From a bacterium (GTDB taxonomy: Bacteria > Auribacterota > UBA3054): a stretch of DNA of 64,000 bases. The DNA is taken from contig JAFYXV010000002.1 of assembly GCA_017557885.1 (NCBI GenBank), positions 131,056 to 195,055 of the forward strand, in the 5' to 3' direction. Position numbers and translations under genes: made by a program. Within the stretch, counting starts at the first letter, position 1. Every line of letters starts with the position of its first letter. Of the stretch, positions 26,427 to 35,696 are shown one piece after another. The notes beneath the pieces are model-generated. The model searched no databases. It was not told where the DNA came from and worked only from the letters and a program-made list of their open reading frames with translations.

Positions 26427-26461
26427 ATGCAACTCCTCCTTCAACATTTTAGCATAAAATT

Positions 26462-26498
26462 GCTTACCTAAATTTAGGTAACTTAATTTTAGGTAAGC
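26462..26498. promoter_or_regulatory. Operator-like triple half-site upstream of the exported-protein gene
   Basis: Outer inverted repeat GCTTACCTAAA (26462-26472) and TTTAGGTAAGC (26488-26498) with a further TTTAGGTAA half-site between them, so the first two form an 18-bp perfect palindrome. It sits just upstream of the probable -10 region. Regulator unknown. Confidence 0.55.
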
Positions 26499-26526
26499 AG
26501 ACGAGGGGCGATTTCTGTATAAAAAA

Positions 26527-26553
26527 CGACCGGCGGCAAAACGCCGCCGGCCG
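26527..26553 (-). terminator. GC hairpin, copy 1 of the island family
   Basis: 11-bp stem CGACCGGCGGC / GCCGCCGGCCG followed on minus by six T. It lies 22 nt after the stop of the decayed SUMF1 domain. It works as an intrinsic terminator and also resembles hairpins found after DGR variable regions. Confidence 0.75.
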
Positions 26554-26574
26554 TTTCACATTATTTGAGCTTGT

Positions 26575-26787
26575 TTATTCCGGGATCAAAGCCACGCGGA
26601 AGCCGTAGTGGCTGTCGTAATCAGCCGGTCTGATGTTGATCCTGTACGCCGACCGGCAAAAGTACGCGCCGTTATCGAAGCTGCCGCCGCAAAGAACGCG
26701 GCGAGCGCCTTCGCTCGGCCCAGCCGGGTCAGTCGCGTCGCCCTTATATTCAGAAGGATTGCTGCCCGGGATCGTCATCGTCGTCAT
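26575..26787 (-). pseudogene. Remnant of a SUMF1/FGE-fold domain with internal deletion
   Basis: 70 codons that join two distant parts of a SUMF1 domain. PGSNPSEYKGD corresponds to the middle of intact copies (GSNPSEYTGD in the 840-residue protein). The frame then jumps straight to DPAGPSEGARRVLCGGSFDN and the C-terminal GFRVALIPE. About 110 residues between are gone. It is out of frame with the gene upstream (26750-28465), whose own product runs 13 residues past its GFRVALTV end and stops inside this remnant. So the ancestral gene most likely had two SUMF1 domains, as its neighbour still does. The last 33 codons look like a DGR-type variable region. Confidence 0.8.
26599..26690 (-). other. 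Variable-region-like segment in the SUMF1 remnant
   Basis: C-terminal lectin-fold segment between GGS and YGFRV. It has the same length as in the 840-residue protein. Differences fall mainly at codon positions 1 and 2, with third bases kept as C or T, as expected from adenine-to-any-base mutagenesis of AAC codons. Confidence 0.5.
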
Positions 26788-28465
26788 CAGACACAGTCAA
26801 AGCCACGCGGAAACCGACGAATTCATAGCGGTCATTCGGGCCGTTGCCGGCTCGGAACGCCGATCGGCATTCGCCCGCAGGGTTGGCTTGTGAACCGCCG
26901 CGCATATGGCGGCTGGTACCTTCGGCGGCGCCCACCGGATCCGTGACCGGATCGCTGGTATAGCTTCCGGGGTCCCCCCACCAATCCAGACACATCTCCC
27001 AAACGTTGCCGTGCATGTCGTAGAGGCCCCAGTAGTTCGGCAGATACGAACCGACCGTGGTGTGAAGATCATCGTAGCCGCCCTTACCATCTTTACCGTT
27101 TTTACTATAGCGGCCAAGTTTGTCCAAGTTTTCGTCGTGATAGGCCTCTTTGCTGGCGTCGGTGTTGTTGTTCCAAGCCTTGAACGTTCCGGCCCGGCAG
27201 GCATATTCCCACTGGGCTTCCGTGGGAAGGTCGAAAGTTTTGGATGTCTTCGCGCGCAGCTTGCCCATGAAGGAGTCCTCGTCCACGTCGTTGTTGGCCG
27301 GCCAGGCGGAGCCTTTTTCCTTTCCTCTGATCATGTTATAGGTAATGGCCTCAACAGGTCTCATGTCGCCTTTGTGACCTGAGGGATCGCTGCCTGTGAT
27401 CATTTTGTACTGTTTCTGAGTAGTCTCAAAGACGCCAATGTAAAAATCTTTTGTTAGCGTGACCTCATGCTGGATCTCATAATCTTTTCTCCAATCTGAT
27501 TCATATTGCGGAGAGCCCATCGTGAAGGTACCGGCCTTAACCCTTCTCAGAACCATCTTGGTAGTCTTGTATTCGTCTGTCCACCCGCCTTCCGGCACGT
27601 CCTTGAGGTAGCTTATGGCGCCACTCTCGAGATCAATCACCATATAAAGGTGTTTCGAAATTTCCACCGCCTCGATTCTGACCATCAGATGATTTACGGA
27701 ATGTGTGAAAACATCATCCGGACGCCAGATCGCTTTGTATTTGCCCGGCCCGGGAAGCGTTCCCACACCGTCTCCGGATAATGACCCCAACAAGAAAAGG
27801 TTGAAGGGCCACGAGCCGTCATCATTTACGGAGCCGTAGAATTTCACCTGCAGCAGAGAATCGGAGTCGCATTCCAGCGTGTAGTTTATGATGACGCTTG
27901 TGTCAAAGGGCCACATCTGCATGCCTTTGACTTCCGTGACGGTGCATTCAGCCTGAGCGCTCAAAGCGCTGACTAAGATCAGCGCGGCGATCGCGAGCAG
28001 GCTCTTTACTCGTTTGCGCAAAAAGAAAACCGCGATAAGACCAAGAAGCAAAAATCCCGCGGGCTCCGGCAGTATCGTCACGTCCTTGGTGAAGACCTTT
28101 GTCTCCTTGTCGCTCACAACAGTCTCGGTCAGGCGGTAGGTGTCGTCTATCGGGAAATCCTTGTAGATCTTGTCGGTGTATTTCCAAACGACGGTTCCTT
28201 CCACTGGGGTAGAGGAATCATCCTCGAAGATACTTGCCGTTATTGTGGAGTCGCTCGTATCTTTCACCGTGATCGTCAAAGACTTCGGCTCTCCCTCGGC
28301 CATGGCGCTGCTGTAGGCCAGCTTGTCCGTTGGCTTCAAAACGATGTTATCTTTGATCTTTCCCCCGCAGAAATCGAAGGGCTCGGACCAGGGTGAAGTG
28401 TCGGCCAAAAGCGCGCCCGCGCAGACGAGCGCCGCCAGAACAATGAAAGCTAATAATTTTTTCAT
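26750..28465 (-). CDS. SUMF1/FGE-fold surface protein with internal PEP-CTERM signal (571 aa)
   Basis: Starts at 28465 (AAGGGGG ahead of the ATG), 45 nt after an in-frame alternative. Order: signal peptide 1-21; beta-rich domain 22-130; PEP-CTERM-like sorting signal LPEPAGFLLLGLIAVFFLRKR (132-152) in mid-chain; a second signal-peptide-like stretch ending ALSAQA (about 153-172); beta domain 175-270; SUMF1 domain about 285-558 (TKMVLRRVKAGTFTMGSP ... LPTEAQWEYACRAG ... GLYDMHGNVWEMCLDWW ... CRSAFR ... GFRVALTV). Only one of the two cysteines used by true formylglycine-generating enzymes is present, so a binding role is more likely than catalysis. The C-terminal 13 residues (SDDDDDDPGQQSF) come from a frameshift into a decayed second domain. 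Confidence 0.8.
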   Translation of the reverse strand: MKKLLAFIVLAALVCAGALLADTSPWSEPFDFCGGKIKDNIVLKPTDKLAYSSAMAEGEPKSLTITVKDTSDSTITASIFEDDSSTPVEGTVVWKYTDKIYKDFPIDDTYRLTETVVSDKETKVFTKDVTILPEPAGFLLLGLIAVFFLRKRVKSLLAIAALILVSALSAQAECTVTEVKGMQMWPFDTSVIINYTLECDSDSLLQVKFYGSVNDDGSWPFNLFLLGSLSGDGVGTLPGPGKYKAIWRPDDVFTHSVNHLMVRIEAVEISKHLYMVIDLESGAISYLKDVPEGGWTDEYKTTKMVLRRVKAGTFTMGSPQYESDWRKDYEIQHEVTLTKDFYIGVFETTQKQYKMITGSDPSGHKGDMRPVEAITYNMIRGKEKGSAWPANNDVDEDSFMGKLRAKTSKTFDLPTEAQWEYACRAGTFKAWNNNTDASKEAYHDENLDKLGRYSKNGKDGKGGYDDLHTTVGSYLPNYWGLYDMHGNVWEMCLDWWGDPGSYTSDPVTDPVGAAEGTSRHMRGGSQANPAGECRSAFRAGNGPNDRYEFVGFRVALTVSDDDDDDPGQQSF

Positions 28466-28481
28466 AATCCCCCTTGGGTAA

Positions 28482-28510
28482 ATTGTAACAATATGCTTAT
28501 ATTCTAACAA
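28482..28510 (-). promoter_or_regulatory. Promoter of the 571-aa SUMF1 protein gene
   Basis: TTGTTA (28510-28505), 17-nt spacer, TACAAT (28487-28482). It begins 4 nt after the hairpin that ends the preceding gene. Confidence 0.6.
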
Positions 28511-28513
28511 AAA

Positions 28514-28540
28514 CGACCGGCCGCGGAATGCGGCCAGTCG
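28514..28540 (-). terminator. GC hairpin, copy 2 of the island family
   Basis: CGACCGGCCGC / GCGGCCAGTCG (one mismatch) with GGAAT loop, 11 nt after the stop of the AlbA_2 ATPase gene, followed on minus by TTTTTG. This copy is not next to a SUMF1 gene end. Confidence 0.75.
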
Positions 28541-28550
28541 CTTAATAACA

Positions 28551-29939
28551 TTAATCGTCTTTCAGGATCTTATAGTAGCCTTTCTTCCTTGAGCCCACTC
28601 TCTCGATGTAGCCGCTGTCCTTCAAAACAGAGAAGCCGTTGTCCACGGTGGTCTTTCCGAGGTAAAGTGTTTCCGCCACCAAAGCCTTAGTAATGCTTGG
28701 GTTTTCCTTTATCAGCGCCAGGATCTTTTGCTGCGTCTTGGACAAAGGTTTCTGCTTGTTTTTGCTCCCGGATCTCTCCACCATCACGTTGATCCAATTG
28801 AAGGGGATCTTCACCACTATGGCGTTCTCCAGGAATTCGTAGGCCTTCTTACCGTAAGCCTTGACGATAGTGGGAACGCCCCTGCCTGTCCGCTCGCTTA
28901 TATGCAGCTGCAAAAAGAGATCGGATAGCTTTTTGTTTACCGGGACGGACACCCCGGAATAAAAGCCTTCCAAAGTCTGTTCAGGCGCGAGCGTACCTCT
29001 CGATAATATCTCTATCCTGTCGGAAAAAACCGTGATCATCGGCTCGTTCTTCGTAACCCAGGCGTTGTGCACGAACGCGTTTACGACCGCCTCGCGAAAA
29101 GCATCGCTCTCGAACAAAGGCACTTCCTTTCTCTCCACCACGCGGTCCCTTTCGTCCGCCTGCATAACGTTCAGAACATCTCCGTAACGAAGAATGTCGT
29201 CCAGAGTGTAAAGCAAGCACTGATTGCCGAATTCCCTAACCGCGAACATCATGTCCGCTTTCGTCTTGCCCGAGAAAAGCGCCACCCTTATAGACATATG
29301 GGAATCGTCTGACAAAAGCTGCGCCAGAATATTGTACTTGCCGTCTTCCGTCAGCAAACCGAGATTACGCTTGAAAGTTGTCCGATTTAAGGGAAGTCCT
29401 TTCGCGCCGTAATAAATAAACAGTTTCTCAAAAGTCAGGTCCTGGTAATCGGAGGGCGTGTTCTCCATTGTCGGGAATCCCGTTCTGAGAATTTGAAACA
29501 AGAAGGATTCTTTTTCAGGATACTTCCTGATCTTCTCTTTGCTCGAGCCAATGCGTATGAATCTCTCATCGTTGAAACTTAAGGGAGAGATTTTGGCCGC
29601 GGGGATCGTCAGCAGAACGACGCGCTTGCCGTCGATAACAGTTTCGTCGAAATTGAAATTATTTTCCGGATACAGCTGTCTGGCCAAAAAATGCTTCAAT
29701 GGTTCACCTTTGACCTCGCTGTTCGGGTCAAAAGTCGTTCCTTCCACTTCATGCGTCTTATTGCTTATTCCCCAGACTAGATAGCCGTTTTTGCGTCCCT
29801 CGTAGGCGGCGCTGTTGGCGAGAGCGGATATATATTCCCCTATCTCCTTGGCGTTAGACCAATTCAGCTTAAACTCGAACCATTCGCGCTCACTTTCGTA
29901 AGCCCTAAGCTCGTTTATGATCTCAACAGTTTTCTTCAT
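28551..29939 (-). CDS. AlbA_2 (Schlafen-like) / HATPase transcriptional regulator-like protein
   Basis: About 462 residues. N-terminal AlbA_2 domain (EREWFEFKLNW ... GYLVWGISNKTHEVEG), central histidine-kinase-type ATPase lobe (EAVVNAFVHNAW N-box-like, then FSDRIEILSRG and ERTGRGVPTIVKAYG), C-terminal winged helix (SKTQQKILALIKENPSITKALVAETL). This trio is typical of putative ATP-dependent transcription regulators whose targets are mostly unknown. The start is uncertain: 29939 gives MKKTVEIINELR; an in-frame ATG at 29951 lies inside an operator half-site. Promoter and a 12-bp inverted repeat upstream (29962-29999) suggest autoregulation. It lies between two SUMF1 genes. Confidence 0.8.
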   Translation of the reverse strand: MKKTVEIINELRAYESEREWFEFKLNWSNAKEIGEYISALANSAAYEGRKNGYLVWGISNKTHEVEGTTFDPNSEVKGEPLKHFLARQLYPENNFNFDETVIDGKRVVLLTIPAAKISPLSFNDERFIRIGSSKEKIRKYPEKESFLFQILRTGFPTMENTPSDYQDLTFEKLFIYYGAKGLPLNRTTFKRNLGLLTEDGKYNILAQLLSDDSHMSIRVALFSGKTKADMMFAVREFGNQCLLYTLDDILRYGDVLNVMQADERDRVVERKEVPLFESDAFREAVVNAFVHNAWVTKNEPMITVFSDRIEILSRGTLAPEQTLEGFYSGVSVPVNKKLSDLFLQLHISERTGRGVPTIVKAYGKKAYEFLENAIVVKIPFNWINVMVERSGSKNKQKPLSKTQQKILALIKENPSITKALVAETLYLGKTTVDNGFSVLKDSGYIERVGSRKKGYYKILKDD

Positions 29940-29961
29940 GTTTTTACCCATCGTGTATTAT

Positions 29962-30005
29962 TTATTACCCATGGGTATTATATCACACATGGGTAATAAA
30001 AGCAA
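29962..30005 (-). promoter_or_regulatory. Promoter and dyad operator of the AlbA_2 ATPase gene
   Basis: TTGCTT (30005-30000), 17-nt spacer, TATAAT (29982-29977). A perfect 12-bp inverted repeat TTATTACCCATG-N14-CATGGGTAATAA (29962-29973 and 29988-29999) brackets the -10 element; a further ACCCAT half-site is at 29946-29951. Confidence 0.75.
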
Positions 30006-30006
30006 A

Positions 30007-30033
30007 CGACCGGCCGCGGAATGCGGCCGGTCG
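30007..30033 (-). terminator. GC hairpin, copy 3 of the island family
   Basis: Perfect 11-bp stem CGACCGGCCGC / GCGGCCGGTCG with GGAAT loop, 30 nt after the stop of the 840-aa SUMF1 protein gene and 1 nt from the -35 element of the AlbA_2 gene promoter. Confidence 0.78.
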
Positions 30034-30063
30034 CTTTCAATGCGCTCAACGCTCAACTTCGCT

Positions 30064-32586
30064 TTAAGGGACCAGAACTACGCGGAAGCCGTAGCGGCTG
30101 TTGACCCGCGACGGGATGCCGTTGAACCGGACCGCCGAGCGGCAATTGCACGCGCTGCCGTAGTAGCTGCCGCCGCGAAGGATGCGGTAAGTACCTGTGG
30201 TAGCTCCTGCCGGATCCGTGACCGGATCGCTGGACCAACTTTCGCTGTCATCCCACCAATCCAAGCACCATTCCAAAACATTACCGTGCATATCGTACAA
30301 TCCCCAGGCGTTTGGCAGATATGAACCTACAGCGGTATGCTGCGTATAGCCTCCCTTCCCGTCGCTGTGGTTATATTCATAACGACCTAGTTCATTCAAA
30401 TTTTCGTCTTCATCATCGTTAGTAAGATTCGTCCCGTTGTTGAGAGCGGTCGTCGTTCCCGCTCTGCAGGCAAATTCCCACTGCGCTTCCGTGGGCAGGT
30501 CGAAATCAGCGCCCGTTTTCGCGCGAAACTTACCGAAGAAGGAATCCTCGTCTACTTCGCCGTTGGCCGGCCATCCCGCGCCCTTTCCCGTTCCGCGGAT
30601 CATATTGTAAGGAACGCTTTCCACCGGTCTCATGTCGCCTGTATATTCCGAAGGATTGCTGCCTATGATCGTTTCATACTGCTTCTGGGTGGTTTCGAAT
30701 ACGGCTATGTAAAAATCCTTGGTAAGCGTGACATCATGCTGGACTTCATCTTTGTATCTTCCCAATTCATCTTCCGGCGAGCCCATGGTGAACTTTCCAG
30801 CCTCGACTTTTCTCAAGACCATTTTCGTGGTCTTGTACTCGTCTGTCCAGCCGCCTTCCGGCACATCGCCGAGATAGCTTATGTCGCCGCTCTCGAGGTC
30901 GACCACCATGTATTTTTCCTCATTTATTGTCAAAGCCACACGGAAGCCGTAGCGCTCGTCCTCTTCCGAGGGATCTTCGCGCATCCTGGAAGCGGAACGG
31001 CAATTCTCGGCGTCGTAGTCGTAGGCGGCGCCGCGGCGGACGCGGTATCTGCCGGTGGTCTGCCCCACCGGATCGGTCTCGTCGCCAGCGTAATCGCCGT
31101 ACCAATCCAGGCACCATTCCCAGACGTTGCCGTGCATGTCGTAGAGGCCCCAGGCATTCGGGAGATACGAGCCCACGACGGTATGCTGCGTATAGCCGCC
31201 CTTGCCGTCGTCGCGGTTATAATCATAACGTCCGAGCTTGTTCATGTTCCCGTCTCGGTAAATGTTGGTGATGTTGGAACCGTTGTTCCAGGACGTTGTC
31301 GTTCCGGCCCGGCAGGCGAACTCCCACTGCGCTTCCGTAGGAAGGTCGAAATCAGCCCCCGTCTTCGCGCGCAGCTTGCCCATGAAGGAGTCCTCGTCGA
31401 CCTCGCTGTTGGCGGGCCAGCCTTTGCCTTTGCCAGCCCCTCTTATGGCGTAGTAATCGACATCCTCCGCCGGTCTCGTTTCGCCGACGTAATAGGACGC
31501 ATTGGTGCTGGTAATAAGCTCATACTGCTTTTGGGTGGTCTCGAAGACGCCGATGTAAAAATCCTTGGTGAGGGTGACTTCGTGCTGGACTTCGTCCTCC
31601 CTGCGGCCCAATTCATCCTCGGGAGAGCCCATAGTGAATTTTCCAGCCTTGACTTTCCTCAGGACCAATTTTATGGTCTTGTAAGTGTCTGACCAGCCTC
31701 CCGGCGGCACATCGCTAAGGAAGCTTGTCTCGCCGTTTGTGAGGTCAACTACCATATAAGTATCTTCGGAGGGAGGAACGACAGATTCCGACACCTCGAC
31801 GTTGATCTTCATTTTTCTTGGCTGGGTCTTGTAGAAACTCTCGTCCGGCATCCAGAAGGTTTTGTATTTGCCTGCCCCGAGAAGCGTGCCATCGGCGCCG
31901 TCCTTCGATATTGTCCCCTTCTCGCCAAGTTCGAAAATAGTTTCGCCGTTGTCGAAGGAGCCGGAGAATTTTACCGCCAACGGAGCCACAGAGTCGCTCT
32001 CCACCGTATAGTTGATGATCACGCATCTGTCAAAGGGCCACATCTGCAGGCAGGAGACATCCGTTACGGAGCTTTCCGCCTGAGCGCTCAAAGCGATCAG
32101 CGCAAGAACAGCCACGAGGCTCTTCACGCGTTTGCGCAGGAAGAACGCAGCAACTAAGCCAAGAAGCAAGAATCCGGCAGGCTCCGGCAGTATGTTCACC
32201 TTCCTAGTCAAGACCTTTGTTTCCGTGTCGCTCACGATAGTCTCGGTAAGGAGATAGGTGTCGTCCGTCGGAAGATCCTTGTATTCCCCGGTTTTGTAAT
32301 TCCAGACTGTCGTACCCTCCACCGGTTTCGCGGAATCATCCAGGAAGATATTGGCTGTCACTTCGGGATCAGCAGTGTCCGTTGCCGTGATCGTCAAAGA
32401 CTTCGGCTCCCCCTCGGCCATGGCGCTGCTGTAGGCCAGATTATCCGTGGGTTGCAAAAGGATCGCTTTTTCCGTGATCTCGTTTCCGTCGAAATCAAAA
32501 TCATCGGACCAACATGAAGAGTCCGCCATAAGCGCGCCCGCACAGGCAAACGCCGCCAGGATGGTGAAGGCTAAGAGTTTTTTCAT
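30064..32586 (-). CDS. Two-domain SUMF1/FGE-fold surface protein with internal PEP-CTERM signal (840 aa)
   Basis: Signal peptide 1-21; beta domain; mid-chain PEP-CTERM-like signal LPEPAGFLLLGLVAAFFLRKR (133-153); second signal-like stretch ending ALSAQA; beta domain to about 270; then two tandem SUMF1 domains (about 275-555 and 560-840), each opening with YMVVDL.xG..S(F/Y)L.DVP and ending GFRV(A/V)L. The N-terminal 170 residues are near-identical in plan to the 571-aa protein, so they are recent paralogues. The C-terminal domain ends in a segment (GGSYYGSACNCRSAVRFNG...) in which 14 of 15 presumed variable codons end in C and the other in T, the mark of adenine-directed hypermutation. No clear ribosome site; may be read from the ATPase gene 53 nt upstream. 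Confidence 0.85.
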   Translation of the reverse strand: MKKLLAFTILAAFACAGALMADSSCWSDDFDFDGNEITEKAILLQPTDNLAYSSAMAEGEPKSLTITATDTADPEVTANIFLDDSAKPVEGTTVWNYKTGEYKDLPTDDTYLLTETIVSDTETKVLTRKVNILPEPAGFLLLGLVAAFFLRKRVKSLVAVLALIALSAQAESSVTDVSCLQMWPFDRCVIINYTVESDSVAPLAVKFSGSFDNGETIFELGEKGTISKDGADGTLLGAGKYKTFWMPDESFYKTQPRKMKINVEVSESVVPPSEDTYMVVDLTNGETSFLSDVPPGGWSDTYKTIKLVLRKVKAGKFTMGSPEDELGRREDEVQHEVTLTKDFYIGVFETTQKQYELITSTNASYYVGETRPAEDVDYYAIRGAGKGKGWPANSEVDEDSFMGKLRAKTGADFDLPTEAQWEFACRAGTTTSWNNGSNITNIYRDGNMNKLGRYDYNRDDGKGGYTQHTVVGSYLPNAWGLYDMHGNVWEWCLDWYGDYAGDETDPVGQTTGRYRVRRGAAYDYDAENCRSASRMREDPSEEDERYGFRVALTINEEKYMVVDLESGDISYLGDVPEGGWTDEYKTTKMVLRKVEAGKFTMGSPEDELGRYKDEVQHDVTLTKDFYIAVFETTQKQYETIIGSNPSEYTGDMRPVESVPYNMIRGTGKGAGWPANGEVDEDSFFGKFRAKTGADFDLPTEAQWEFACRAGTTTALNNGTNLTNDDEDENLNELGRYEYNHSDGKGGYTQHTAVGSYLPNAWGLYDMHGNVLEWCLDWWDDSESWSSDPVTDPAGATTGTYRILRGGSYYGSACNCRSAVRFNGIPSRVNSRYGFRVVLVP
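30085..30177 (-). other. Candidate DGR variable region of the 840-aa protein
   Basis: Codons between GGC-GGC-AGC and TAC-GGC-TTC. Compared with the equal-length remnant at 26599-26690, I count 12 differences at codon position 1, 10 at position 2 and 5 at position 3. Constant blocks (GCG, TGC CG-, TCG GCG, CCG) lack adenine, as they would if copied from a template mutated only at A. Confidence 0.6.
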
Positions 32587-32639
32587 ATGTTATTGGGGGT
32601 GAATTATGAAATTTATTTTTGCAATATTACGATCGTTCT

Positions 32640-33983
32640 TTACAAAAACATAGCCATATACAATGGCAAATGGATTATGTCGTCCTTTAGCATGACGTCT
32701 TTGGTGTAAAGAATGAATGTTTCTCCGATGCGCTTCTTGAATTTTTTCTTGAATTTATCAAGAGACAAGTGTGAACGGTAATTTCCACTTTTTACCTCCA
32801 CAGGGCATATCTTGTCTCCGCGGCGGATCAGGAAATCGATCTCCATTCTGTTTTCGGCGCTGCTAAGGTCGTAGCGGGAATAGAAGAAGAGCTTTCTCTC
32901 GCTGCAGGAAAAAGCCTGCGCGACATAATTCTCCATGATCATTCCCTCGTTTATGTAAAGGTCTCCGGAATACACTTCGCTGTATATGCTGCTCTCCGTG
33001 TACGGGCGGTCTCCCAGCGTCTGCGAGATCATCAGTCCGGTGTCCAGAAGATAGACTTTTAAAGTTGAGTCGTCCTCGCTCAGGGAAAGAGCGACGCTGG
33101 GATCAGTGGCGTTGTACGCTATGTTAGCGACTTTCGCCTCGTCGAGCCAAAGAAAGGCTTCCTCGTAATTCCTGTATCTGGCCTCTTTGTCCAAAGAAGC
33201 CAAGGAATATTTCTTTTCCTTTTTGGAAAGCTGACCGGGAATGCCGTCGAAAACTCGCCTGACCTTCGCGGCGTCTTTTCCGGCGTATTTGGCAATATCG
33301 TTGTGGTATAGTCTGAGAATAGATCTTTTCACCATGTCGACTTCGCCAAGATTTCGCGTCTCGATAAACTTATCGACAGCTTGCGGCATGCCGCCTACCA
33401 GAAGATATTCCCGGAAGCGGTGCATAGCCGTTTCATGGAAACTTCTTCCCATAGGACGTCTTTCCTCGAAAGCCTTTTTGATGGCGGGAAAAGTGACCTT
33501 GTCACCTATCGCCCACAAGTATTCCTCAAAGTCCATCGGATACATTCCAATGGCTTCTTCCTCCGACGGGATGGTGATATCCTTCACGTTCATCCTTATG
33601 GAAATAAGCGAACCGGTCTCTACGTAATCGTAGCGTCCGTCCCCCACAAGCGCTTTCAATAGTTGCCTGGCCTCGGGACAGCGCTGCACCTCGTCGAAGA
33701 CGATCAAGGTTTCTCTTTCGTGCAAAACGACATTATAGGCGAAGGAAAGCTCGTTGAAAAAAACGCTCAGATCGTCAGGATGGTCAAGGATGGCTGAAAG
33801 CACTTTTTTGTTCGGTTTCATGAAGTCCACGATAACGTAAGACTTGTATTCGTTTTTACCGAATTCTTCAACAATAGTGCTCTTGCCAACGCGTCTGGCT
33901 CCCTCTATCAAAAGGGCGGATCTGCCTTTGGATCGGCGCTTCCATTCGAGGAGTTTTTCATAGATCTTTCTCTTAAAAAGCAT
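32640..33983 (-). CDS. AAA_14 / DUF4143 family ATPase (second copy)
   Basis: 447 residues. Walker A GARRVGKS (28-35), Walker B LIVFDEVQRCPEA (about 104-116), C-terminal DUF4143 nuclease-like core with NRMEIDFLIRRGD and CPVEVKSGNYRS. Same architecture as the copy at 11592-12932 but clearly diverged and with higher GC. Expressed from a strong promoter (34006-34034) just downstream of three direct repeats whose sequence differs from those of the first copy. May be co-transcribed with the 840-aa SUMF1 gene 53 nt downstream. The biological role of the family is not established. Confidence 0.85.
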   Translation of the reverse strand: MLFKRKIYEKLLEWKRRSKGRSALLIEGARRVGKSTIVEEFGKNEYKSYVIVDFMKPNKKVLSAILDHPDDLSVFFNELSFAYNVVLHERETLIVFDEVQRCPEARQLLKALVGDGRYDYVETGSLISIRMNVKDITIPSEEEAIGMYPMDFEEYLWAIGDKVTFPAIKKAFEERRPMGRSFHETAMHRFREYLLVGGMPQAVDKFIETRNLGEVDMVKRSILRLYHNDIAKYAGKDAAKVRRVFDGIPGQLSKKEKKYSLASLDKEARYRNYEEAFLWLDEAKVANIAYNATDPSVALSLSEDDSTLKVYLLDTGLMISQTLGDRPYTESSIYSEVYSGDLYINEGMIMENYVAQAFSCSERKLFFYSRYDLSSAENRMEIDFLIRRGDKICPVEVKSGNYRSHLSLDKFKKKFKKRIGETFILYTKDVMLKDDIIHLPLYMAMFL

Positions 33984-34005
33984 AATTATCTCCTATTTTG
34001 CGACT

Positions 34006-34034
34006 ATTGTAGTATTTACAACTTAAAAAGTCAA
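34006..34034 (-). promoter_or_regulatory. Promoter of the second DUF4143 ATPase gene
   Basis: TTGACT (34034-34029), 17-nt spacer, TACAAT (34011-34006). Direct-repeat copy 1 ends 9 nt upstream of the -35 element. Confidence 0.75.
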
Positions 34035-34042
34035 TACTCTTG

Positions 34043-34123
34043 CACGTTTTTAAGAGGTCATAGATGGCTGAATTTACACGTTTTTAAGAGGTCAGACAAG
34101 GCCAAATTTACACGTTTTTAAGA
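34043..34123. repeat. Three direct repeats upstream of the second DUF4143 ATPase
   Basis: CACGTTTTTAAGAGGTCA at 34043-34060 and 34077-34094, and CACGTTTTTAAGA at 34111-34123, with an exact 34-bp period. No homology to the repeats before the first ATPase, but the same number and nearly the same spacing. Confidence 0.85.
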
Positions 34124-34137
34124 CTTAAATAACAAAA

Positions 34138-34164
34138 CGACCGGCCGCGGAACACGGCCGGCCG
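34138..34164 (-). terminator. GC hairpin, copy 4 of the island family
   Basis: CGACCGGCCG / CGGCCGGCCG stem, 23 nt after the stop of the 502-aa SUMF1 protein gene, with a TTTTG tail on minus. Confidence 0.75.
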
Positions 34165-34187
34165 CTTTGGATTGCCAGAAGCCGATT

Positions 34188-35696
34188 CTATTCCAAAACT
34201 AGAACTACGCGGATGCCGGAGTCGTTGTTGTAGTTGTCGGTGCGGCTATAGCGGCTCCGGTAAGCCGAGCGGCTTTCTTTCGGATAGAAATAGTAGCTGC
34301 CGCCGCGAAGAACGCGGTAAAAGCCCTTTTCGGGGCCCTTGGGATCGGTGACGGGATCTGCCGCCATGTTTTCACTGTACCAATCCAGACAGTACTCCAA
34401 GGCATTGCCGTGCATGTCATAAAGGCCCCAGGCGTTCGGAAGATAGCAGCCGACCACAGTCGTGTACTCGTAGCCGCCTTTGCCGTCCTTCATGTTGTGA
34501 TAGACTCGGCCAAGCTTGAACATATTGCCGTCGTCAAATTCGTTGGTGATGTTCGTGCCGTTGTTCAAAGCCGTGGTCGTTCCGGCTCTGCAGGCGTATT
34601 CCCACTGCGCTTCCGTAGGCAGATCGAAAGCCTTTCCTGTTTTCGCGCGAAACTTCCCGAAGAAGGAATCGTCGTCGACTTCGCTGCTGGCAGGCCAGGT
34701 AGCCCCTTTATTCCTCCCTCTTATGGCGTCGTAGGAAAGCTGTTCCACGGGCCTCAGATCACCCTTATAGTAGGAGGGATCGTCGCCCGTGACGATAGCG
34801 TACTGCTTCTGGGTCATCTCGAAGACGCCGATATAAAAGTCTTTGGTGAGCGTCACCTCGTGCTGCACTTCCGCTTCTTCCCTGCCGAACTCGTTGGTGG
34901 GAGAGCCCATGACGAATTTCCCGGCCGGGACTTTTCTCAAGACCATCTTCGTGGTCTTGTAAACATCCGACCAGCCTTTCTTGGGTTTATCGTCAAGATA
35001 ACTGATCCCTCCGCTGGCAAGGTCGACGACCATGTATTTTTCCGCGAAAGCCGGACCATCATCAGGTTCTTCGTCACCACCGTCGTCGGGCTTCTGATAG
35101 TTCGCCACGGTGAATTTTTTGGCCTTGCTCCAAGTGGAGTAATAATCCTTGCCGTTCACTTTCTTGAAGGCACGCAAACACACCTGGTAGGTCGTGTTCG
35201 GCTGAAGTCCCGTGACCTGACAGCTCGAGGACTGCTCGCCTGTCACCAAAATGTTGCCGGACTGTGACTCGTCGGGAGCGGTGTAAAGAAGTTCGTAGCC
35301 GTCTACGCCCGAGGAGGGCTTCCAGGTCGCCTCGAAGCCCGATTCGATGCTTTTAATTTTCTTTATTTTCACCGGCTGCGGAACGATCGCGAACTCCCCC
35401 ACCGCCTTGCCGGTATATTTCCCCGCGCCGGTAGCCACCACTCTGGCGGTGCCTATTTGATCGTTGTTCTCATAGGAAAGCGTATATTCCTTCTTTTGTT
35501 TCAAAGGCTTGGCGCCGCCGCAATAGACTTTCGCGGCAGGTTTCAAAGCCTTGCCCTTGAAAACGAGCACGTCCTTTTTCAATACGACCGAACCGTTGGC
35601 GCTCAGATCATTGTCGGAGGAATCCTTGACGTCCGCAAAGATGACGCTTGAAATTGCAAGCGACGCCAATAGTAAAGCGGCAATTAGTTTTTTCAT
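34188..35696 (-). CDS. SUMF1/FGE-fold secreted protein with fibronectin type III domain (502 aa)
   Basis: Signal peptide 1-21; beta domain about 25-105 (KVYCGGAKPLKQKKEYTLSYENND resembles bacterial repeat domains of surface proteins); FN3 domain about 110-195 (SGVDGYELLYT ... LQPNTTYQVCLRAF); acidic linker (DDGGDEEPDDGP); SUMF1 domain about 220-502. No PEP-CTERM signal, unlike its two relatives. The C-terminal segment GGSYYFYPKESRSAYRSRYS is strongly different from the others and has lost the usual Cys before RSA. Own promoter (35746-35774) and terminator hairpin. Probably a ligand-binding surface or secreted protein; no enzymatic role is supported. Confidence 0.82.
   Translation of the reverse strand: MKKLIAALLLASLAISSVIFADVKDSSDNDLSANGSVVLKKDVLVFKGKALKPAAKVYCGGAKPLKQKKEYTLSYENNDQIGTARVVATGAGKYTGKAVGEFAIVPQPVKIKKIKSIESGFEATWKPSSGVDGYELLYTAPDESQSGNILVTGEQSSSCQVTGLQPNTTYQVCLRAFKKVNGKDYYSTWSKAKKFTVANYQKPDDGGDEEPDDGPAFAEKYMVVDLASGGISYLDDKPKKGWSDVYKTTKMVLRKVPAGKFVMGSPTNEFGREEAEVQHEVTLTKDFYIGVFEMTQKQYAIVTGDDPSYYKGDLRPVEQLSYDAIRGRNKGATWPASSEVDDDSFFGKFRAKTGKAFDLPTEAQWEYACRAGTTTALNNGTNITNEFDDGNMFKLGRVYHNMKDGKGGYEYTTVVGCYLPNAWGLYDMHGNALEYCLDWYSENMAADPVTDPKGPEKGFYRVLRGGSYYFYPKESRSAYRSRYSRTDNYNNDSGIRVVLVLE
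34212..34307 (-). other. Variable-region-like segment of the 502-aa SUMF1 protein
   Basis: Most codons between GGC-GGC-AGC and GGC-ATC-CGC end in C or T (for example TAC TAT TTC TAT, AGC CGC TAT AGC). Two codons (AAA, GAA) and a changed Cys do not fit simple adenine mutagenesis. The 3' end TCCGCGTAGTTCT is shared exactly with the 840-aa gene. Confidence 0.45.

Follow-up and report, generated by a model that had tools for sequence, protein, structure and literature searches.

Results

Genes of the array

The stretch of DNA analysed here (the window) comprises 64,000 nucleotides of contig JAFYXV010000002.1, from a bacterium of the phylum Auribacterota (assembly GCA_017557885.1). Between 26.5 and 35.7 kb it carries three genes for proteins with FGE/SUMF1 domains, of 840, 502 and 586/571 amino acids, all on the minus strand; together they account for five such domains, if a decayed copy behind the 571-aa gene, the leftover of a second domain, is included. 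Diversity-generating retroelements (DGRs) diversify C-terminal C-type-lectin/FGE-fold domains through adenine mutagenesis of an AAC-rich template repeat. An initial annotation, made from the letters of the window, had proposed that the C-termini of these proteins resemble DGR variable regions, with no reverse transcriptase (RT) nearby, and that the genes either serve as targets for a DGR that works in trans or are its fossils. The present work extends the comparison to the source genome (G000), to its seven congeners, i.e. the sister species of the genus, among them G007, and to known DGRs. Judged by their codons, the regions in the window and in the family to which they belong are DGR variable regions, of which the C-terminal domain of the 840-aa protein has the clearest in the window.

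Codon signature of the family

The genome (2.24 Mb assembly, 92.7% complete) contains 38-39 FGE/SUMF1 domains, spread over about 10 contigs. In a codon alignment of 38 of them, with the variable region taken between RGG and GFR, the entropy of the variable columns is mostly 1.5-2.0 bits at codon positions 1 and 2, which is near the maximum, while the third position is mostly C. Codons of the form NNC make up 64% over the 19 variable columns, whereas the figure is 31-33% for variable columns of these domains that lie outside the region. The same shift holds within four-fold codon boxes, where C reaches 70% inside the variable region but 39% in the remainder of the domain (38 copies, Fisher p=1e-24), and it is thus not an amino-acid effect. 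The control genome G048, which has no RT, contains 27 FGE places and 22 usable copies, and its four-fold C amounts to 36% in the variable region versus 32% in the body (p=0.31). An NNC excess over the body of at least 0.4 is found in 12 of the 38 copies here, and in none of the 22 in G048. Copies high in NNC include those at C7:133438, C7:134575, C9:16987, C9:18124 and C3:24399.

The FGE genes of another genome, G059 (Candidatus Riflebacteria), had been considered as the negative control, but were dropped in favour of G048, since G059 carries a DGR (L203, see below) and its other FGE genes are also enriched in C. Ten further FGE genes of that genome (L206-L216) show NNC enrichment of the variable segment (0.44 versus 0.26), and they are possibly remote targets of the L203 element.

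The signature is unevenly distributed among the window copies. Variable codons compared with variable columns outside the region give NNC fractions of 0.84 versus 0.27 for the C-terminal copy of the 840-aa gene, 0.74 versus 0.40 for the 502-aa gene, 0.63 versus 0.37 for the 571-aa gene, and 0.53 versus 0.48 for the inner domain of the 840-aa gene. The four assayed copies rank as in the initial annotation, in which the fit was good in two copies, partial in the 502-aa gene and poor in the 571-aa gene and the inner domain. Its count of differences between GGS and GFRV, for the 840-aa gene and the decayed copy, was reproduced exactly, with 12 at first, 10 at second and 5 at third codon positions.

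Template-like homogenisation between diverged copies

Contigs C7 and C9 contribute two copies each to a group of four whose bodies are 59-73% identical in nucleotides and only 37-53% identical at third positions. Inside the variable region, third positions match at 66/66 sites for the fixed codons of the group and at 57/60 for the variable ones, whereas at first and second positions the variable codons match at only 46/120 sites. Where residues are shared, the codons are identical in 61/61 cases in the variable region versus 418/787 in the body. The C-terminal copy of the window 840-aa gene pairs likewise with the gene at C7:87081-87812: the comparison gives 22/22, 11/11 and 9/10 identical sites, the last two being the third positions of fixed and of variable codons, while variable positions 1 and 2 agree at only 5/20. 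The window pair carries the fixed-codon set TCG GCG CGG CCG and the four C7/C9 copies carry TCC GCT CGC CCC; since the two sets are distinct, at least two templates were used.

Selection has no means of fixing third bases, and gene conversion would not homogenise neighbouring sites and yet leave the variable ones random. Mutagenic retrohoming yields precisely this pattern. A combination of gene conversion and selection was ruled out on the same ground, as the fixed sites agree while the variable sites differ.

A different kind of change was observed in the orthologues of G000:C1:427128 (L126, L149, L179, L097, L184, L170). Their bodies are about 90% identical between species, yet the variable region is entirely different, variable in length and contains many non-NNC codons, which looks like cassette replacement instead of fresh mutagenesis.

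Correspondence with canonical DGRs

An expected template string, AACAACTGCCGCTCNGCNAACCG, was written from the fixed codons and searched for exactly in approximately 85,000 genomes. It matched two, L203 (Candidatus Riflebacteria JADFYG010000123.1) and L204 (Armatimonadetes JAGPGE010000539.1). Each of these is a canonical DGR that combines an FGE target with an RT and with a template in the same register. A third canonical DGR, L053, lies in the same phylum as the window, and its FGE target has a PEP-CTERM-like tail. The templates of the three elements read RGGSWNNN(A/E)NN..S.NRN(N/R)NNP...GFR, and their AAC codons coincide with the variable columns of the window family. Entropy in the family is 1.79 bits at template-adenine sites and 0.88 elsewhere (p=6e-9). 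With the register taken from L203, the family's own template being unseen, the four C7/C9 copies are 0.39 identical at template-A sites and 0.96 at the other sites, and the window pair 0.29 and 0.98, respectively; the copies thus differ at template-adenine sites and share the fixed bases. The three canonical elements differ from the window family in that their RT and template adjoin the target, and in fixed codons that do not correspond exactly to the family's own.

The DGR origin is therefore supported by the homogenised, NNC-only copies whose upstream parts are diverged, by the match in register to real templates and by the clean G048 control. The observation in the initial annotation was correct, and understated.

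Search for the reverse transcriptase and the template

The RVT_1 profile finds no RT in the window array, as had been noted at the outset, and its best match in the genome (11.9 bits) falls under the cut-off. A DGR-type RT (e.g. with the IGNLTSQ motif) was detected in none of the seven congeners, while identical searches detect DGR RTs in G018 and G025, of the same phylum. The RT of one congener (G006, L059) is a 628-aa IPQGGALSP-type enzyme and not of the DGR type, and the RTs of the order relatives G009, G013 and G014 lack the DGR [LIV]GxxxSQ motif.

An AAC-rich template is absent from the source genome in exact and 3-mismatch searches. A 99-nt predicted template, compared by blastn with the eight genomes, gives its best matches (80-84%) in the variable regions of FGE genes and otherwise only short, low-scoring ones, and the template pattern is absent with 0-1 mismatches from 44 genomes of the phylum. 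The genome-wide search for a DGR-type RT and a template copy which the initial annotation had proposed thus yielded neither, in the assembly or in the seven congeners. An Avd-type accessory gene (PF05635-type) was not found in the eight genomes by a search that also found none in control genomes.

Among viral and mobile sequences, the IMG/VR, plasmid and phage collections contain no close relative, their FGE relatives being less than 40% identical. The template search in IMG/VR gave a single match, which lies within a phage structural gene and is due to chance, and the 80 viral DGR loci compared have a different type of template. One phage-type contig, L205 (IMGVR_UViG_3300031998_005388), carries an FGE-type variable protein of its own (CRGGCYNYAAAYCRCAYRYNYYVSVSTLNLGLR), beside which lie a short accessory-like gene and a YxDD-containing frame of RT size. 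It is apparently a phage DGR unrelated to the window family, and it was rejected as a source, its FGE protein being only 36% identical.

Since RT and template were looked for and not found, the locus is not classified as a complete DGR but as a family of DGR-written target genes. The eight assemblies are 83-93% complete, so that an unbinned or mobile element may exist.

Frozen copies in the window and probable recent writing elsewhere

The window region is syntenic in G007 at 94.5%. The variable regions of the three window genes are protein-identical there; that of the C-terminal copy of the 840-aa gene differs by one synonymous change, and the decayed copy shares 204 of 205 nt with its G007 counterpart, which has an extra stop. 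From this comparison, the window copies are no longer rewritten. Of the two alternatives originally offered for these genes, trans targets or fossils, the fossil reading is thus the better one for the window, because the variable regions are protein-identical in the sister species.

For other copies in the genome and the genus, recent writing is likely on the sequence comparisons made here. The four C7/C9 copies share 123 of 126 third positions, a difference of 2.4%, while orthologues of G000 and G007 differ by a median of 5% at these positions; as the former value is smaller, the writing would have lasted until about the split of these two species or later. Across 68 close orthologue pairs, which are not independent of one another, the variable region evolves faster than the body by factors of 2.4 at codon position 1 and 3.2 at position 2, with a ratio of 1.0 at position 3. 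One locus present in four species has bodies with 99.2-99.8% identity, and where two species differ in its variable region they do so by 3-5 changes, every one of them at positions 1 or 2 of NNC codons. The orthologue comparison is at most suggestive of ongoing diversification in populations.

Fold and function of the proteins

Pfam assigns the FGE-sulfatase family, and the variable region is located C-terminally in the C-type-lectin/FGE fold, as in DGR targets. The predicted model has a pLDDT of 86 and is matched by Foldseek to PvdO, TvpA and FGE, with PvdO (5hha) as the top match in both sequence and fold, and TvpA (2y3c) among the nearest solved structures. The column aligned with the catalytic Cys336 of human FGE is hypervariable, so that the catalytic pair (Cys336/Cys341) is not preserved, and no NCBIfam equivalog reaches its cut-off. 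By analogy with TvpA, the proteins are most likely exported, probably surface-exposed, and bind ligands through their variable face, and they are probably not enzymes.

In the 840- and 571-aa proteins, a PEP-CTERM-like motif (PEPAGFLLLGL...FFLRKR) occurs about 150 residues from the N-terminus (window positions 32030-32150 and 27960-28080), followed by a second signal-like stretch (ALIALSAQAE). The layout of both resembles an in-frame fusion between a PEP-CTERM protein and an exported FGE protein.

Downstream flanks

Several copies share their 3' flank and, in the reading frame after the variable region, a perfect palindrome of 11-12 bp, which is AT-rich, has a 3-nt loop and lies in a wholly conserved linker. 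The palindrome CAAATTCAAAAGNATTTTGAATTTG is present in three of the eight genomes, only just downstream of internal FGE domains. In its perfect or near-perfect 11-bp form, CAAATTCAAAAG(G/A)ATTTTGAATTTG, it occurs in frame soon after the GFR terminus of internal FGE domains and nowhere else in the eight genomes, at L287, L290, L292, L294 and L295 (G000), L288 (G006), and L289 and L291 (G003). The consensus described for the hairpin at the DGR initiation of mutagenic homing (IMH) site comprises a 7-10 bp GC-rich stem and a GRNA loop (PMC3240598), and the stem and loop of CAAATTCAAAAGNATTTTGAATTTG do not fit this published cruciform. The palindrome might be a homing hairpin or merely a conserved linker.

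Behind every FGE gene in the array lies a GC-rich hairpin (CGACCGGCCGC...), nearly the same in each case, at 28514-28540, 30007-30033 and 34138-34165 (and 26527-26537). The hairpins look like ordinary terminators, yet are more alike than expected by chance.

Coordinates and neighbouring genes

The features of the array are listed in Table 1. The two ATPase-type genes which separate the FGE genes are unrelated neighbours. In G007 (L096, 12500-15800), the array contains two additional genes, for a 554-aa FGE protein and a 391-aa AAA-type ATPase, while at the corresponding point of the window (26461-26604) the decayed FGE remnant runs straight into a 279-aa gene. Modules of an FGE gene plus an ATPase gene thus seem to be gained and lost.

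Table 1. Features of the FGE/SUMF1 array (positions in the window).
Feature	Position	Strand	Basis or remark
840-aa protein, two FGE/SUMF1 domains (PF03781)	30064..32586	-	open reading frame (ORF); Pfam, two stretches, E 2.7e-73
Variable region, C-terminal copy of 840-aa gene (RGGSYYGSACNCRSAVRFNGIPSRVNSRY, up to GFR)	30091..30177	-	codon comparison
Matching segment, inner domain of 840-aa gene	30937..31038	-	NNC signature gone
502-aa FGE protein with fibronectin III domain, partial DGR signature	34188..35696	-	ORF, Pfam, codon statistics
Variable region of 502-aa gene (RGGSYYFYPKESRSAYRSRYSRTDNYNNDSGIR)	34206..34310	-	codon statistics
586/571-aa FGE protein, weaker signature	26750..28510	-	ORF, Pfam, codon statistics
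Variable region of 571-aa gene	26804..26902	-	codon statistics
Variable region of decayed FGE domain behind 571-aa gene (CGGSFDNGAYFCRSAYRINIRPADYDSHYGFRV)	26593..26694	-	sequence comparison
AlbA_2/Schlafen + HATPase_c_4 + winged-helix protein, neighbour amid target genes	28551..29951	-	ORF, Pfam
AAA_14/DUF4143 ATPase, neighbour amid target genes	32640..33983	-	ORF, Pfam

Discussion

The explanation which we consider highly probable is that the genome holds a large repertoire of trans targets written by a DGR, and that the element was lost recently or lies outside the assemblies. According to this scheme, the C-terminal 90 bp or so of the SUMF1/FGE-fold (C-type-lectin-like) domains are DGR variable regions. 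An error-prone RT would have copied AAC-rich templates, inserting random bases at the template adenines, and the resulting cDNAs would have overwritten, in trans, the 3' portions of numerous target genes scattered over the genome, with at least two templates in use (TCG GCG CGG CCG; TCC GCT CGC CCC). The products would be exported binding proteins, the hypervariable face of which would correspond to the ligand surface of FGE/TvpA. Either the element itself would have remained at work until roughly the most recent species splits and then disappeared, or it would reside on a mobile or unbinned replicon.

Several observations weigh against this explanation. The DGR RT and its template are absent from the assembly and the genus, and the machine itself is therefore unseen. 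The C enrichment extends to the ten G059 FGE genes, which are not known as DGR targets. The variable regions vary in length, a feature that adenine mutagenesis by itself does not account for, and slippage in AAC runs or the use of several templates must be assumed. Furthermore, the changes between orthologues show no preference for adenine (41/76 in the variable region versus 180/288 in the body), so that the most recent of them could reflect diversifying selection acting on older variable regions.

The probability given to a DGR origin is shared between two forms of it, which differ in the fate of the element. In one, the loss of a DGR that had written into an ancestor is ancient, inertia preserves the NNC pattern, and there has been no rewriting since the genus arose. 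Such a history is consistent with the searches of the eight genomes, which found no RT, template or Avd-type accessory, with the frozen state of the window copies in G007, and with the finding that most variable regions are at least as well conserved between species as the remainder of the gene. It is nevertheless at odds with the low third-position difference of the four C7/C9 copies, which places the writing about as recently as the split of G000 and G007, and with the several loci that changed solely in the variable region after a species split, and we regard it as possible but with the balance tilted against it. In the other form, an intact DGR on a phage, a plasmid or an unassembled contig still rewrites the copies with high NNC in trans, and here the chances seem about even. 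The homogenised copies are recent and, at several loci, divergence is confined to the variable region; with the genome at 92.7% completeness, binning of the metagenome type would tend to lose mobile elements. However, the template string is absent from IMG/VR, the viral, plasmid and phage FGE relatives fall below 40% identity, and the 80 viral DGR loci differ in template type; moreover, the naive probability that a chromosomal and universal RT was missed in all eight genomes through incompleteness alone is about 2.5e-8. In a bolder version of this last form, every genome of the genus maintains 15-40 hypervariable receptor-like domains, which a DGR outside the chromosome, arriving on a mobile element, continues to rewrite in trans. 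This version is rather unlikely; were it true, the target repertoire and the mutator would be decoupled.

Explanations which dispense with a DGR fare considerably worse. Ordinary paralogues, shaped by diversifying selection with codon bias and by gene conversion at their 3' ends, would be expected to show an excess at first and second codon positions, and their variable columns would fall where FGE loops naturally vary, as they do here. Selection does not fix the third base, however, and the rise of four-fold C has no counterpart in the RT-less control; conversion would equalise the variable sites, yet these agree at 25-50% while their neighbours agree at 91-100%, which leaves this explanation hardly credible. 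That the proteins are active FGE-type enzymes which activate sulfatases or carry out a PvdO-like oxidation, and that their C-terminal pattern is irrelevant, would accord with PvdO as the closest match. It is nonetheless very improbable, as the residue aligned with Cys336 lies in a hypervariable column and the NCBIfam equivalogs stay under the cut-off.

DGR surveys usually proceed from the RT, so that target repertoires without one escape them. In the present case, a signature in the codons alone, namely variable codons of the NNC form together with third bases that diverged paralogues share, reveals about 38 domains in a single genome and at least two template lineages, and it offers a route to orphan or trans targets. 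The choice between loss of the mutator and a mobile mutator is directly testable in this system. Expansions of SUMF1/FGE paralogues may, in turn, represent diversified binding proteins instead of enzymes.

Targets left behind without an RT, and targets diversified in trans, are already known (PMC4891356, PMC7517822, PMC10907252). In Treponema denticola, eight isolates without RT and template retain 2-6 FGE targets, and the TvpA family resembles the one described here in that its targets adopt the FGE-sulfatase fold, number several per genome and are remote from the element; there are, however, at most seven of them, and sister isolates carry the complete element (Nimkulrat et al. 2016, PMC4891356), as compared to about 38 domains in a single genome here and an element in none of eight species. 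Nostoc all3226 has kept remnant homology with no RT nearby (PMC7517822), and Thiohalocapsa PB-PSB1 possesses 15 trans targets (PMC10907252). In the cyanobacteria and in PB-PSB1, dispersed paralogues of the C-type-lectin (CLec) fold are, or formerly were, diversified in trans, as would be the case here, yet the DGR cassettes are present in those genomes and the targets are fewer. What is new in the present family is its scale (about 38 domains in 2.2 Mb), the absence of the element from the genus as sampled, and the evidence of recent writing.

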